Of a DNA stretch of 64,000 nucleotides, positions 47,320-54,769 are shown in pieces (position 1 is the stretch's first letter; every line of letters starts with the position of its first letter). This DNA is from an uncultured Pontibacter sp. (GTDB taxonomy: Bacteria > Bacteroidota > Bacteroidia > Cytophagales > Hymenobacteraceae). The notes beneath the pieces are model-generated. The model was not told where the DNA came from, did not search any database, and saw nothing but the letters and a program-made list of their open reading frames with translations. The DNA lies in assembly GCF_947495565.1 (NCBI RefSeq), contig NZ_CANLZM010000015.1, positions 58,532 to 122,531 on the forward strand, given 5' to 3'. Made by a program: the position numbers and the translations under genes.

Positions 47320-47361
47320 AAAGAAGCCCCTGTAGCATTTAATTGCTGCAGGGGCTTCTTT
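47320..47361 (+). terminator. Terminator of lipA
   Basis: AAAGAAGCCCCTGTAGCA-loop-TGCTGCAGGGGCTTCTTT (one mismatch) followed by ATTTTA. Confidence 0.9.
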
Positions 47362-47739: not shown

Positions 47740-50700
47740 ATGATTAAACATCTACTGCTGACCTTTCTTTTACTGACTGGCAGTATCACCCTTAGCCAAG
47801 CGCAGGAGAGCATATCCCTAGGGAGGGCTACCACTTTTTCTGCCCTGGCCAGCAAGAAAATTGTAGCCAAAGGCCCCGGAATAACTCAAATAGACGGTAA
47901 CATTGGTATTAGCCCCGGCAGAACCATTGAAGGCGAACAGTTTCTGGATGTGCTAGGCCGGAAGGAGCGTAACTCAGTACTAGCGATTGCAGGTATGCAG
48001 AGCGCCAATAGCGCCTATAATGAGCTGATCAGTTTGCCTATAACGATGAACCATGGCCCAGTGTTGGGTAATAATAACTCATTAGGTCCCGGTGTTTATA
48101 AATTCGATTCCAATACGACGCTTAACGGCAACCTGCGCCTCGACGGCCAAAGTGATATAAACTCGAAGTTTATATTTATTATAGATGGCAACTTTACATC
48201 CAACAGTGGCAGTATCCAGTTCTCCGACATGGGAGCCTCTGCCAAAAATGTGTACTGGGTTGTAAACGGCAGCGCTACTATTGGGGCAGGCAGCTCCTTT
48301 CAGGGCAATATTATTGCCACAAAAGACATTGCCTTCCAAAACAGGGCTGCGCTAGTTGGTCGTGCCATTTCACTTGATGGTACTATTTACTTCGACCAGA
48401 ACTCTACGGCTATGCCGCTTATCATACAGACTAATCTTGAAGTAAAGAAAGATGTAGAGTACAGCGAGATTACGTTAGGTGCCAGAGTGGTTTATACTAT
48501 AAAAGCCACTAATAAGGGGCTGGGCCAGGCTATGTATGTCGTGGTAAAAGAGCAGATACCAGCCGGACTGAAATTTATAAGGTCTGTCTCTGCTACAAAA
48601 GGCACATACAACGAAGAAACGCATGAATGGCTGATTGGCGATATGGCGGTAGGGCCTACAGAAACCCTGAAGCTGGAGTTTGAGATTGTGGGCACGGGTA
48701 ATATAAAGAATGAGGTTGTTATCATTGGTGATAACCCGGACCCTGTACCAGATAATGATGAGGACGATGCAGTAATCATACTTCCAGACTTAGGAGTAAT
48801 GAAGGTGCTGCTCAACCCGAAGGAGTCTTATGCGGTAGGCGATCTTGTAGATTATAGGATCACGCTCACAAACTATGCTGATGCCGCCGAAAACAATGTA
48901 TACATAAGAGAGAAGCTGCCGGAGGGGCTGGAGCTAGTAAGTTATACCGCTAGTGCAGGTGTATATAATAACGACACAGGCATTTTTTATGTGCCATCCG
49001 TTGCAGGCAATTCTTCTGTTACGCTTACTATAAAAGCCAAACTGGTTAAGGCCGGTGAGATCAGAAACGTGGTCAGCATTATAGCTAAAGACATTGTACC
49101 GGTAGACCCTACCAACCCTGTAGATCCTGCTAACCCAACTGGTCCGGAAGATTATAAGGACTCTGACCCAGACAATGACGAGGATGAGGTGACAATACCT
49201 AATGTAACCTGTAGCCCTGAAATAAGTGTGGCTTTTGAGGCAGCACCAGCAACGGTATGCGCAAGTGCAACAGGCATCACACTGAAAGCAACAACATCAG
49301 TAATAGGCGGAACCTACAACTGGGTACTACCAGCCGGATGGAACTTTGCAGCAGGCACTAACCGAAACAGCAATGAAATAACTGTAAATGCAGGTAATGC
49401 CAGCGGAAGTAAAACAGTAAAAGTAAATTTAATTGACCAGTGCGGTAATACTGTAAGTGCAGAGACTGCTGTAAATGTAACCGGTGCTCCGGTTGCCCCA
49501 GCTATAACAGGTGAGGCTATTGTATGCTTTAACGGAAACATTACCTTAGGCGCGGGTGAGTCTGAAGAAGAACTGACTTACGAGTGGACTGTAGGCGATA
49601 ATCTGGAAATAGATGGCCCGGCAGATGGAGCCAGTGTAAGCGTGAAGCCAAAGAACGGCAGCTTGCTAGGCGGCAGGGTAATGCTTAAGATTACGAACAG
49701 CTGCGGTTTCAGCAGTACAAGCTTTAAAGTGCTAACAATAGCACCTGCTCCAGCAACTCCTGTTGCCATTTCTGGAGATATAGATGTATGTGCAGCCAAA
49801 CCAGTTACCTTCACTACGCCAGTAGTAGTAGGTGCAACAAGCTATACTTGGAGCTTCCCGGCTGACTGGACTGTGGTAGGAGATGCAACCGGCAGAGAAG
49901 TAGCTGTAATGGTAGGCGAGTCCAGCGGCGAGAAAGAAATCAGCGTGAAAGCTAATAACGCTTGCAGCAGCAGCGAAGCCTTTACCAGAACAATTAATGT
50001 AAACGCCGCGCCAAGCACCGAGAATTTCGCTCTTAATGGCGATGCTGAAGCTTGCCAGAACGCTACTCTTGTATTTACGGCAACTGCACTAGAGGGAGCT
50101 ACTTATAGCTTTGAAGCAGAAGGCGGCTTAACGAAAGTATCAGAAACAGGCAATAAAGTAACAGTGAAAGCAGGCGCCACAAACGGTACCGTAACTGTAA
50201 CAGTAACTGATTTCTGCGGCAACACATTCACTGTAACTAAAACAGTGGTAGTAACGCCTTTATTGGCTACTCCTGCCATTTCCGGTACAAGCAATGTGTG
50301 CCAGAACAGCACAGGAAATATATACACAGCGCCAGCTTATGAAGGTGCGGTAGCTTACAAGTGGACTGCCAACGGCGGCCTGGCAATTACTTCCGGAGCA
50401 GAAACAGCTACGGTAGCAGTTAGTGCAGGTGCCAGTGGAGGAACTCTAACGCTGGAAGTTACGAACGGATGTTTTACAGTTAAGACGACAAAAGTAATCG
50501 GTATTAACCCGCTGCCACAGGCTCCGGCAAGTATAACCGGCGATGCCGCAGTGTGCGCCGGAACACAGCAGACTTATACAACTGCAGCCGTAGCAGGTGC
50601 CACTTCATATACCTGGAGCTTCCCTTCAGGCTGGGCAGTAGTTTCTGGCGAGGGAGAAAGAACAGTAACGGTAACAGTTGGCAACAGCAGCGGAAAAGTA

Positions 50701-51798
50701 AGTGCAAAAGCTACTAACGAGTGCGGTAGCAGCGTGCAGGCAGCCGCTCTTGATGTTGCTGTGAACGATGTGCTGGCAGCCCCGGTCATTAGCGGCAGCA
50801 ACGGCGCTTGTATAGGTGCATCACTAACTTATACTATACCGGCTGTTAACGGCGCCACAGGATATGCGTGGCAGGTGCCAGCAACCTGGACGCTCGTATC
50901 GGGCCAAAACACAAACAGCATTATAGTAACAGTTGGCAGTGCAGCCGGCAACATGACGGTAGCTGTGAAAAATGAGTGCGGTCTGGGTGAGGCAGCGGTA
51001 AAAGCTGTAGCTCCAGTATTGGCTCCTGTCGCCCCGGCTATTGCGGGCAACAACGATGTATGTGAGTTTACGCAACAGCTCACCTATTCAATTTCAAACC
51101 CAGAGGAAGGAGCCACTTATACTTGGTCGCTGCCGCAGGGCTGGAGCTTTGAAGGTGGTAACAGCGGTACAAGTGTAACAGTAAATGCCGGCTCAACAGC
51201 AGGTGCTATTAAAGTGGTAGCAGAAAATAGCTGTGGCACTTCAGAGGGACAGCTGAATATTCAAATCTTCACGCCTCCTGTTGCACCGAGCCAGCTTACT
51301 GATAACAGCAACGTTTGCGACGGACTGGTATTCTCTGTTGAGCCGGTGGCAGGTGCCAGCGGTTATACATGGGCAGTAAGCAGCGGCTTCACCATCACTT
51401 CAGGCCAGGGTACACCCTCTATCACAGTGAAAGCCGACAAGAACGACGCGGTGGGTACAGTAACTGTTGTTGCCGAAAACGGCCCTTGCAGCAGCATGGA
51501 GGCTACAGCGGCAATAGATGCTGCTAAAGCAGACGGCAACCTGGACTTCCCGAAAGCCTTTAGCCCGAACGGCGATGGCACAAACGACAACTGGCACATC
51601 AAAAACCTGGAGAAGTTCCCTAACTCTGAAGTAACCATTTTTAACCGATGGGGATCTGAGGTGTTCAAGACGAAGAGCTACCAGAACAACTGGAATGGAA
51701 AAGGACTGGAGCAGGGTACTTACTTCTACAAAGTAAGGGTGACATTGTGTGATGGTGTAGTAAAAGAGTTTACCGGCTATACTACCATCTTTAGGTAG
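47740..51798 (+). CDS. Ice-binding-domain surface adhesin with PKD-like repeats and type-B T9SS domain
   Basis: A 1352-aa exported protein. Signal peptide about 1-22 (ends SQAQ). Residues about 23-226 are a DUF3494 ice-binding domain (GRATTFSALASKKIVAKGP at the front, LGPGVYKFDSNTTLNGNLRL, TIGAGSSFQGNIIATKDIAF at the end). Two DUF11 repeats follow (about 227-490, VVYTIKATNKGLGQAMYV and VDYRITLTNYADAAENNVY), with an Asp/Pro-rich linker (VDPTNPVDPANPTGPED). Then nine PKD-like repeats of about 85 residues (about 490-1265), each with one Cys near the front (VC) and one near the end (CG). The C-terminus (about 1268-1352, FPKAFSPNGDGTNDNW ... VTIFNRWGSEVF) is the gliding-motility-type (type-B) T9SS sorting domain. 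The next two genes are the usual PorP/SprF and OmpA partners. Predicted to be displayed on the surface with the ice-binding head outward. Confidence 0.93.
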   Translation: MIKHLLLTFLLLTGSITLSQAQESISLGRATTFSALASKKIVAKGPGITQIDGNIGISPGRTIEGEQFLDVLGRKERNSVLAIAGMQSANSAYNELISLPITMNHGPVLGNNNSLGPGVYKFDSNTTLNGNLRLDGQSDINSKFIFIIDGNFTSNSGSIQFSDMGASAKNVYWVVNGSATIGAGSSFQGNIIATKDIAFQNRAALVGRAISLDGTIYFDQNSTAMPLIIQTNLEVKKDVEYSEITLGARVVYTIKATNKGLGQAMYVVVKEQIPAGLKFIRSVSATKGTYNEETHEWLIGDMAVGPTETLKLEFEIVGTGNIKNEVVIIGDNPDPVPDNDEDDAVIILPDLGVMKVLLNPKESYAVGDLVDYRITLTNYADAAENNVYIREKLPEGLELVSYTASAGVYNNDTGIFYVPSVAGNSSVTLTIKAKLVKAGEIRNVVSIIAKDIVPVDPTNPVDPANPTGPEDYKDSDPDNDEDEVTIPNVTCSPEISVAFEAAPATVCASATGITLKATTSVIGGTYNWVLPAGWNFAAGTNRNSNEITVNAGNASGSKTVKVNLIDQCGNTVSAETAVNVTGAPVAPAITGEAIVCFNGNITLGAGESEEELTYEWTVGDNLEIDGPADGASVSVKPKNGSLLGGRVMLKITNSCGFSSTSFKVLTIAPAPATPVAISGDIDVCAAKPVTFTTPVVVGATSYTWSFPADWTVVGDATGREVAVMVGESSGEKEISVKANNACSSSEAFTRTINVNAAPSTENFALNGDAEACQNATLVFTATALEGATYSFEAEGGLTKVSETGNKVTVKAGATNGTVTVTVTDFCGNTFTVTKTVVVTPLLATPAISGTSNVCQNSTGNIYTAPAYEGAVAYKWTANGGLAITSGAETATVAVSAGASGGTLTLEVTNGCFTVKTTKVIGINPLPQAPASITGDAAVCAGTQQTYTTAAVAGATSYTWSFPSGWAVVSGEGERTVTVTVGNSSGKVSAKATNECGSSVQAAALDVAVNDVLAAPVISGSNGACIGASLTYTIPAVNGATGYAWQVPATWTLVSGQNTNSIIVTVGSAAGNMTVAVKNECGLGEAAVKAVAPVLAPVAPAIAGNNDVCEFTQQLTYSISNPEEGATYTWSLPQGWSFEGGNSGTSVTVNAGSTAGAIKVVAENSCGTSEGQLNIQIFTPPVAPSQLTDNSNVCDGLVFSVEPVAGASGYTWAVSSGFTITSGQGTPSITVKADKNDAVGTVTVVAENGPCSSMEATAAIDAAKADGNLDFPKAFSPNGDGTNDNWHIKNLEKFPNSEVTIFNRWGSEVFKTKSYQNNWNGKGLEQGTYFYKVRVTLCDGVVKEFTGYTTIFR

Positions 51799-51824
51799 GC
51801 AGCAGCTTAAATTTAGTAATTCCA

Positions 51825-52763
51825 ATGAAAATGAGAATATGTTACCTATTGCTGGCCCTGTTGCTTACCACGGCTGCAAGCGCGCAGCAGAATCCGCAGT
51901 ACTCGCAGTATATTTTTAACAGCATGTCTATCAACCCGGCTTATACGGGCAGCAAAAATGTGCTGAATATAAATGCCTTTCACCGCTCGCAATGGTCTGG
52001 GGTAGAAGGAGCGCCAAGCACCCAGTCGTTGGCCGTGGATGGTGTAATAGCGAACGATAGACTGGGCCTGGGCCTGAACCTGACGCGCGATGAGATTGGC
52101 GCCCACACCACCACCAGCGTTTATGGTAACTTTGCCGTGAAGCTGCAGGTGAGCGAAGATGCCATCTTTAGCTTAGGCCTGGCGCCTGGTTTAGTGCAGT
52201 ACACGGTAGATGGCAGTAAGTTTGGCATCACCGATGACCCCTCCATCCCTACAGGAAAAGAAACAAGTATAAAACCAGATGTAAAGATCGGGGCCTACTT
52301 TCACACCAACCGCTTCTACGCGGGTTTTTCAGGCACAGAGCTGCTGCAGTTTAAAGACATGGACCAGGTGGAGCCGGAGCGCCACTACTTTTTTACCGCT
52401 GGATATGTGTTTGATGTAAGCCCTTTTGTAAAGCTGAAGCCAAGCCTATTGGTAAAAGAGGATTTTCATGCACCCACAAGTATGGATGTGAACGCCTTTA
52501 TACTTCTGGCAGACCGCCTCTGGCTGGGTAGCTCTTACCGTACCAGCATGAATGTTTTTAGCGATGCGGAGATGGGAGACGTGGAAAAACGCACCGCTGT
52601 AGCCTTCATTGGAGAGCTGCAGGTAATGAAGCAATTGCGCCTGGGTTACTCTTACGATAAAATGCTAAACGGATACAGCAACCAGAGCACCCACGAAGTT
52701 TCAGTTGGCTACTACTTCTTCCGTAAGAAAGAGACCAAAATGATGACGCCGCAGTACTTTTAA
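51825..52763 (+). CDS. PorP/SprF-family T9SS membrane protein
   Basis: A 312-aa outer-membrane barrel of the PorP/SprF family, needed for secretion or anchoring of type-B sorting-domain cargo. The signal peptide ends ASAQ (about 21), followed by the family hallmark NPQYSQYIFNSMSINPAYTGS near 23-43 and RSQWSGVEGAPSTQSLAV, and it closes with STHEVSVGYYFFRKK. It starts 26 bp after the adhesin stop and precedes the OmpA gene by 20 bp, so the three form one operon. In such sets the SprF paralogue serves the specific neighbouring cargo. Confidence 0.95.
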   Translation: MKMRICYLLLALLLTTAASAQQNPQYSQYIFNSMSINPAYTGSKNVLNINAFHRSQWSGVEGAPSTQSLAVDGVIANDRLGLGLNLTRDEIGAHTTTSVYGNFAVKLQVSEDAIFSLGLAPGLVQYTVDGSKFGITDDPSIPTGKETSIKPDVKIGAYFHTNRFYAGFSGTELLQFKDMDQVEPERHYFFTAGYVFDVSPFVKLKPSLLVKEDFHAPTSMDVNAFILLADRLWLGSSYRTSMNVFSDAEMGDVEKRTAVAFIGELQVMKQLRLGYSYDKMLNGYSNQSTHEVSVGYYFFRKKETKMMTPQYF

Positions 52764-52783
52764 CCCTTAGCGCTTACTATTAT

Positions 52784-54769
52784 ATGAAATTTAAGAATAT
52801 ACCCTTTTACATAGCAGCTGCCGCTGTGCTGGGCTTTTCGCCTGTGGCACAAGGCCAGTCATCGCTGCGCAAGGCAGATAAACATTACGATAACTATGAA
52901 TTTGCACTAGCACTGCCAGCGTATAAGGAAGCCATACAAAAACGTAAACCAGAACTGCCAACTGTAGAGCGTATTGCCACAGCCTACCGCCTGACACGCC
53001 AGAACAAAGAAGCTGAAGTATGGTATGCCAAGGTGGTGGCCATGCCAAGCCGTCCGCCCATGAACCTGTATTACTATGCTGAGGCGCTGCGCAGCAACGG
53101 CAAGTATGTGGAGGCAAAAGAGCAGTACATGCAGTGGGGCGAAGAAATGCCAGAGTATGCAGAGCGCGCTCAACAACTCATGAGAGCTACCGATCAGTCG
53201 CTACGCCTGATGAAAATGCCTGCAGTGGCGGAGGTTACGCCGGTAGCTACCCTGAACAAAAACGGAGCCTCAGACTTTAGTCCGATGCAATATGGTAGCA
53301 ACGGCATCGTCTTTACCTCTGACCGTGGTGTGCAGAAAGACGGCAAAAACCCTAAAGTATACGGCTGGACAGGCCGCCCATACCTGCAGCTGTTTGTAGC
53401 CCAGGATGCCGGAGAAGGCAATTACGGAAAACCAGAGCCGCTGCAGGAAGTAATAAACGCCGATTACCACAATGCAACAGCCTCTGCCGCAAAAGACGGT
53501 AGCAAACTATACTTTACCCGCACTAAAATGGTGCCTGCGCTGGATAACGCAAATGCAGATCCTACCAGTTGGGCAGAAAAAAACGAAAACCAGAACCTTA
53601 TAAACCGTCTGGAAATTTATTCCGCAGAGAAGCAGGGCGGAAGCTGGGGCAATATCCAGGCATTTGATTACAACAAAGTAGAAGAGTATTCGGTAGGCCA
53701 CCCGGCTGTTTCGCCAGACGGGCAGGTGCTATACTTTGTGTCTGATATGCCGGGCAGTCTGGGTGATACGGATATTTATTATAGTAAGCGCAAAGCAGAT
53801 GGCACATGGGGAGAACCTGTAAATGCCGGTGCCGTGATAAACACCAGTGGCCGCGAGAGTTTCCCTTATGTGGATGCTGATGGTAAATTATACTTTGCTT
53901 CCGAAGGCCATGTAGGCATGGGGGGCATGGATATTTTTTCTGCCGAGGGAGAGCCGGGCAGCTGGCGTGCAGTGAAAAACCTGGGTTACCCGATCAATAC
54001 GCCTCAAAACGACTATGGCATCATGTTTACAGAGCCAGGCGTGCGCGGCCTATTGTCATCTAACCGCGACTCTCAGAACGGAACTGAAGATATCTATGCC
54101 TTCAAAATTCTGCAGAAACCGGTAGTGCTGGCTATTACAACGCTGGGCCGCTTCCAAAACAATAAGAAGAAGACGGTGCAGGAGCCGCTTCCAAATACCA
54201 GAATCATGATGAGCCAGAAGAACTCAAAAGATTCTACAGTGGTTATTACAGATGAGAAGGCGCAAAGCTTTGCCGATGCCCGCGCTGGCAACACCTATAC
54301 TTTCAAAGGCTCCAAAATTGGATTCCTGAAAATGGAATCCGGGATAGAAGTTCCGGCTACAGCTTCGGATACCGTGCAGGTGGCACTGGTGTTTGATAAA
54401 AATGAGGTGGAGAAGGCCATCGTGCTGGAAAACATCTATTACGACTTGGATAAAGCTGACATTCGTCCGGATGCGGCTAAAGAACTGAACAAGATCGTGA
54501 CGCTGCTCAAGAACAACCCGACGGTGGAGATTGAAATGGGCGCGCACACAGATAGCCGTGAAAGTCACCTGTACAACCAGCAGCTTTCGGAGCGAAGAGC
54601 GCAGGCCGCCGTGGATTACTTGGTGTCTATGGGTATAGAAAGACGCCGGCTGACGGCAAAAGGCTACGGCAAAACCAGATTGGTGAATAAGTGTGCTGAA
54701 GGTGTGCAGTGCCCGGAAGAAGAGCACCAGAAAAACCGACGCACTGAGTTTATCATCAAGAAGAACTAA
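52784..54769 (+). CDS. OmpA-family protein with TPR and WD40-like repeats
   Basis: A 661-aa envelope protein. Signal peptide about 1-24 (ends AQGQ), TPR-like helices (about 25-150, ADKHYDNYEFALALPAYKEAI), PD40/WD40-like beta-propeller (about 170-450, SDFSPMQYGSNGIVFTSDR, GHPAVSPDGQVLYFVSD, DIYAFKILQKPV), a carboxypeptidase-like linker, and a C-terminal OmpA peptidoglycan-binding domain (about 545-661, YYDLDKADIRPDAAKELNKI). The OmpA Asp and Arg positions (KADIRP, NRRTEF) are present. These proteins accompany PorP/SprF and adhesins and tie the secretion apparatus to peptidoglycan. Last gene of the adhesin operon. Confidence 0.94.
   Translation: MKFKNIPFYIAAAAVLGFSPVAQGQSSLRKADKHYDNYEFALALPAYKEAIQKRKPELPTVERIATAYRLTRQNKEAEVWYAKVVAMPSRPPMNLYYYAEALRSNGKYVEAKEQYMQWGEEMPEYAERAQQLMRATDQSLRLMKMPAVAEVTPVATLNKNGASDFSPMQYGSNGIVFTSDRGVQKDGKNPKVYGWTGRPYLQLFVAQDAGEGNYGKPEPLQEVINADYHNATASAAKDGSKLYFTRTKMVPALDNANADPTSWAEKNENQNLINRLEIYSAEKQGGSWGNIQAFDYNKVEEYSVGHPAVSPDGQVLYFVSDMPGSLGDTDIYYSKRKADGTWGEPVNAGAVINTSGRESFPYVDADGKLYFASEGHVGMGGMDIFSAEGEPGSWRAVKNLGYPINTPQNDYGIMFTEPGVRGLLSSNRDSQNGTEDIYAFKILQKPVVLAITTLGRFQNNKKKTVQEPLPNTRIMMSQKNSKDSTVVITDEKAQSFADARAGNTYTFKGSKIGFLKMESGIEVPATASDTVQVALVFDKNEVEKAIVLENIYYDLDKADIRPDAAKELNKIVTLLKNNPTVEIEMGAHTDSRESHLYNQQLSERRAQAAVDYLVSMGIERRRLTAKGYGKTRLVNKCAEGVQCPEEEHQKNRRTEFIIKKN

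Follow-up and report, generated by a model that had tools for sequence, protein, structure and literature searches.

Does a surface protein with a DUF3494 ("ice-binding") head and a type-B sorting domain of the type IX secretion system (T9SS) hold ice or some other ligand? The question is raised by a gene trio in the 64-kb stretch of DNA from an uncultured Pontibacter sp. analyzed here (the window), which a preliminary description had read as a possible ice adhesin sharing the logic of the Marinomonas one but built on T9SS. Our results favor, as a probable reading, a type-B adhesin that is anchored statically and whose DUF3494 head has been repurposed.

Gene order, domain content, and fold of the trio

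The three open reading frames, all on the plus strand, encode proteins of 1352, 312, and 661 aa and are spaced by 26 bp and then 20 bp. Domain searches define the first product (positions 47740 to 51798) as a DUF3494-headed type-B T9SS surface protein. Its probable signal peptide, read by eye, spans residues 1 to 22 (MIKHLLLTFLLLTGSITLSQAQ; 47740 to 47805) and is followed by the DUF3494 head (residues 23 to 226; 47806 to 48417), delimited by profile, model, Foldseek, and row mapping, in which Ice_binding (PF11999) matches residues 37 to 222 with 110.8 bits (Pfam cut-off, 28.7). The stalk is made up of two DUF11 repeats (48436 to 49200; PF01345 in two stretches, the first at residues 233 to 345, end approximate) and nine PKD_6 repeats (49207 to 51525, limits approximate; PF19408 in nine stretches, 476 bits). 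A type-B sorting domain closes the protein (residues 1269 to 1349; 51544 to 51786), scoring 85.9 bits for CHU_C (Pfam cut-off, 27) and 59.7 bits for TIGR04131 (NCBIfam cut-off, 35).

The 312-aa protein (51825 to 52763) belongs to the PorP/SprF family of outer membrane carriers, which act as shuttle and anchor (TIGR03519, 261.4 bits; cut-off, 90.55). The 661-aa protein (52784 to 54769), by its Pfam and NCBIfam profiles a PorE-like TPR/beta-propeller/OmpA candidate peptidoglycan tether without a lipobox, has PD40 and OmpA matches above the Pfam cut-off and a TPR-like ANAPC3 match below it; it scores nearest to CHU_0125_OmpA (467 of 620 bits) and then to PorE (376.7 of 600 bits), under both cut-offs. 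Profile matches and open reading frame positions thus bear out the domain list first proposed for the long protein, as well as the PorP/SprF and TPR-PD40-OmpA genes 26 and 20 bp downstream. With 51.5 bits, the 1352-aa protein is not a member of the NCBIfam IBP_CFB equivalog (cut-off, 400 bits). Upstream, a terminator-like hairpin of lipA (47320 to 47361, plus strand; 18-pair stem with a T-rich tail) is separated from the trio by 378 bp of AT-rich DNA and would set the trio apart as a unit of its own. The Bacteroidota -33/-7 promoter pattern has a single match in the 64-kb window, no more than expected by chance, and none upstream of the trio.

An AlphaFold2 model of the head, built from an alignment of 12 sequences, is confident (pLDDT, 89.4; pTM, 0.88) and consists of a beta-solenoid with a long alpha helix. 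All 31 PDB matches that Foldseek returned with E ≤ 0.001 are ice-binding proteins or engineered or mutant versions of them, the best being AnpIBP (7bwy; TM, 0.89; rmsd, 1.1). Since the model is confident and every significant match is of this kind, the window head is, as modeled, a true DUF3494 domain.

Conservation of the cassette and divergence of its head

Full-length relatives with 76 to 77% identity are found in P. anaerobius and P. litorisediminis, which supports the assignment to Pontibacter. PF11999 is present in 50/50 Pontibacter genomes, compared with 65/395 sampled class-wide. From the 50 genomes, 93 long DUF3494 loci were taken, and PorP/SprF and PorE-like genes lie directly downstream in 92 of them with order unchanged, which rules out a chance cluster of three genes. 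The exception, L099 (genome G034), has an SprF match at the locus on the same strand, and its deviation is, as far as can be told, an artefact of open reading frame choice. Carrier similarity distinguishes locus A, to which the window belongs and which occurs in 50/50 genomes (G034 by inference), from locus B, a further copy present in 44/50. Of 48 locus A copies scored, 46 have lipA upstream, and all four domain types recur in 33/33 sampled cassette surface proteins. Protein length is 821 to 1632 aa at locus A and 1378 to 3193 aa at locus B. Another type-B C-terminal domain (CTD) gene and PorP/SprF pair sits immediately upstream of a locus B cassette (G000:C12:5034-6215). In two Pontibacter genomes with no locus B DUF3494 head detected, the cassette subfamily of SprF is still represented twice (second copies at G022:C2:632011-632940 and G035:C15:129258-130196); there, the head may have been lost, replaced, or become too divergent.

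Among the Hymenobacteraceae (151 genomes), only genera with the cassette have the carrier subfamily (E ≤ 1e-70): it occurs in 75 genomes, all in the genera labeled g1, g2, g3, and g6, with none listed for g4 or g5. The same trio was recovered at loci taken from g2, g3, and g6, whereas g5 loci encode shorter DUF3494 proteins with a different C-terminus and no trio. Genomes of g4 and g5 contain only a distant PorE-like protein (about 250 to 307 bits, versus 534 to 689 for relatives of the trio's).

The head is the fastest-evolving part among those compared. In 48 locus A orthologues, median identity to the window is 40% for the head, 74% for the CTD, 71% for SprF, 64% for the PorE-like protein, and 94% for LipA. 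Eleven Pontibacter genomes (L003 to L013) also encode a separate canonical DUF3494 protein of 467 to 579 aa, in which the N-terminus is lipobox-like and DUF3494 lies C-terminally. Its median identity between species is 94%, compared with 41% for the locus A heads of these species, and it has a close relative in another family (L168); this pattern looks like recent horizontal transfer.

To locate the ice face, we used the rows reported for IBPv, where row 1 comprises A41, A212, A193, L174, and A147 in domain A and A253, G429, A410, A391, and A364 in domain B, each with a Thr/Ser row alongside; changes from small residues to Leu in this row sharply lower activity (PMC5673226). The published numbering is offset by 21 from the PDB chain (5/5 residues agree), and the columns were then transferred to relatives. 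The window head has K40, T215, D196, S178, and N151 in row 1 and V42, Y217, A198, T180, and T153 in row 2. Thus, the flat, regular ice face that the preliminary description proposed to look for in a model is missing from a fold that is itself present: the b-face of the window head lacks a regular small-residue row paired with one of Thr/Ser. Asp, Glu, Lys, or Arg fills about half of row 1 in the 93 Pontibacter heads (locus A, 50%; locus B, 47%); the corresponding share is 6% for known ice-binding proteins (IBPs), 10% for IBPs at class level, and 0% for type-B proteins of the IBPv-like kind. A general increase in charge as the cause was ruled out, the whole domain being 14% charged versus 9%. 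Four or more small residues occur in row 1 of 1/93 Pontibacter A and B domains and of 68/82 comparison domains; the Fisher test on this row (68/82 versus 3/106) is descriptive, the sequences being related. This row test cannot settle ice binding by itself: Q, E, K, and N also stand in the rows of SfIBP, which is an active ice-binding protein. Canonical DUF3494 lipoproteins of Pontibacter have a single Asp in row 1, and the lone Pontibacter head that comes near an ice-like face is that of L099 (QSSST/NSTTT, uncharged). Row test and distribution together led us to reject a PF11999 match as proof of ice binding.

Proposed anchoring of the candidate adhesin and alternative readings

The genome that carries the trio also encodes SprA (2410 bits), and 7 of its 9 PorP/SprF genes directly adjoin a type-B CTD gene. 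Type-B substrates require a cognate PorP/SprF carrier and remain bound to it, and they appear to be static when accompanied by a PorE-like gene (PMC12618676, PMC9143113). By analogy, the long protein would be exported through Sec and then the SprA T9SS translocon, its type-B CTD being captured by the adjoining PorP/SprF protein and staying bound in the outer membrane, where the PorE-like protein would tie the complex to peptidoglycan. The DUF11 and PKD repeats would form a stalk and the DUF3494 head its outermost part; this head retains the beta-solenoid but not the flat small-residue rows. The SprF/OmpA pair first assigned to the protein stands as regards its own carrier; the OmpA member is better described as a PorE-like cell wall tether, an arrangement published for static type-B adhesins. 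One such static adhesin is Fjoh_3952/3951/3950, which comes with a PorE homologue (PMC12618676), and PG1035-PorP-PorE is a published complex (PMC9143113). No lipobox-like motif was detected in the cassette proteins of the loci taken.

A type-B CTD and an SprF-family carrier would also suit an SprB-type adhesin moved along the cell during gliding. However, SprF requires a Cys-X-Cys tail to engage the gliding track (PMC12635249), and 0/92 carriers have one; the only Cys of the window carrier is at position 6. In addition, the downstream PorE-like gene sets the window protein apart from dynamic type-B adhesins (PMC12618676), and P. coccineus and P. amylolyticus are gliding-negative (PMC12281811). 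A moving adhesin is hence very improbable, and we discarded it on the absent tail and the PorE-like neighbor, the same two features that make a static anchor the best reading. The head might instead be a folded cap without ligand, on a protein that serves envelope or T9SS integrity, as PG1035 has been proposed to cap PorP (PMC9143113); its rapid variation alongside a conserved CTD, SprF, and PorE-like protein would fit. We regard this as unlikely, since the long stalk (821 to 1632 aa at locus A and up to 3193 aa at locus B) and a DUF3494 fold kept by all genomes point to a job at the tip.

That this tip binds ice, making the protein a T9SS-built ice adhesin, is an option that the true DUF3494 fold with its 31/31 significant matches to ice-binding proteins or their mutants, the suitability of stalk and anchor as a tether, and the imperfect rows of SfIBP all speak for. 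Yet we find it highly doubtful. The window rows hold residues of the bulky kind that sharply cut IBPv activity (PMC5673226), only 1/93 Pontibacter domains keeps at least four small residues in row 1, and the heads share 41% identity where the separate canonical DUF3494 protein of the same genomes shares 94%. Moreover, the genus in which the cassette is core is mesophilic: it is carried by P. coccineus BT731, which grows at 10 to 35°C (optimum, 30°C), and by P. amylolyticus, which grows at 4 to 40°C (optimum, 35°C) (PMC12281811). These ranges support the case against an ice ligand but do not decide it, because they are compatible with freezing in nature. What stood of the adhesin logic proposed at the outset is the distal N-terminal DUF3494 domain, the repeat stalk, and the type-B anchor; ice as the ligand did not, given the charged or bulky rows in the window and nearly all Pontibacter relatives, the mesophilic setting, and the fast divergence of the head. 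For the statically anchored adhesin that we prefer, the most likely ligand, we infer, is polar or charged, e.g., a glycan, extracellular matrix, or another cell surface.

Tandem-head relatives and known systems

Better candidates for T9SS ice adhesins than the window protein lie elsewhere, judging by their sequences. In other Bacteroidia families, seven loci (L191, L192, L193, and L195 to L198), a non-random sample chosen for long open reading frames, combine two DUF3494 domains, a repeat stalk, and a type-B C-terminus with SprF- and PorE-like genes downstream. Both TIGR04131 and CHU_C exceed their cut-offs in all four proteins scanned, and the ice rows of these tandem IBPv-like heads read AAAAA/TTSSS or close to it. 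The tree places IBPv-like type-B heads with IBPv domains A and B, and sets the Hymenobacteraceae type-B heads apart by a branch whose support, 92/83, is below the tool's strict mark; this separation suggests two independent couplings of DUF3494 to type-B secretion. We give even chances to the wider proposal that DUF3494 joined the T9SS type-B/PorP/PorE build at least twice, once as tandem heads with an ice face and once as the single repurposed head of the Pontibacter clade. If so, several Bacteroidia families with tandem heads would have ice adhesins anchored without a transmembrane segment, and the single head of Pontibacter and related genera would be a fast-evolving adhesin tip for another ligand. 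In a Sphingobacteriaceae metagenome-assembled genome (L044; 7686 to 8351 and 10667 to 11989), a canonical DUF3494 lipoprotein-like gene lies near one for a protein of 1457 aa that has two DUF3494-like domains and ends in a different, type-A-like C-terminus.

Naming proteins "ice-binding" from PF11999 alone is thus risky, the domain being core in a mesophilic genus with the ice face gone. Matched pairs that share fold and anchor but differ in the ice face could be used to learn what makes a DUF3494 surface bind ice. Among known systems, MpIBP of Marinomonas primoryensis is an RTX adhesin, Ca-dependent and exported by type I secretion, and its ice domain is unrelated to the window head and not N-terminal. 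Common to both is a cell surface build in which a long stalk of repeats carries a binding domain (PMC5014055).

Proteins that combine two DUF3494 domains with DUF11 are known from Arctic sea-ice metagenomes (PMC9957290); Flavobacteriales are the source of most of them, and most lack transmembrane segments. They share with the window protein the pairing of DUF3494 and DUF11 in Bacteroidota but have two heads rather than one. That survey took transmembrane domains as anchors, and we found no mention of CHU_C in it; a T9SS anchor in sea-ice Bacteroidota would escape surveys that count transmembrane domains. Our literature search, which covered few subscription papers, found no paper linking DUF3494 to T9SS.

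The Fjoh_3952-3951-3950 system of Flavobacterium johnsoniae has the window's order of type-B substrate, SprF-like carrier, and PorE-like gene; the carrier-dependent secretion and static display seen there would have their counterpart in the window trio, although no DUF3494 head is reported for Fjoh_3952, whose head and stalk differ (PMC12618676). In Porphyromonas gingivalis, PorP similarly holds the type-B protein PG1035 and PorE ties it to peptidoglycan (PMC9143113), but PorE is a lipoprotein there, whereas the window's PorE-like protein lacks a lipobox, and the window genome has several PorP/SprF pairs where that system has one. Finally, IBPv (5UYT) and other DUF3494 ice-binding proteins have the beta-solenoid of the window head (TM, 0.89), and where their rows present Ala/Gly and Thr/Ser, the Pontibacter clade has charged or bulky residues instead.
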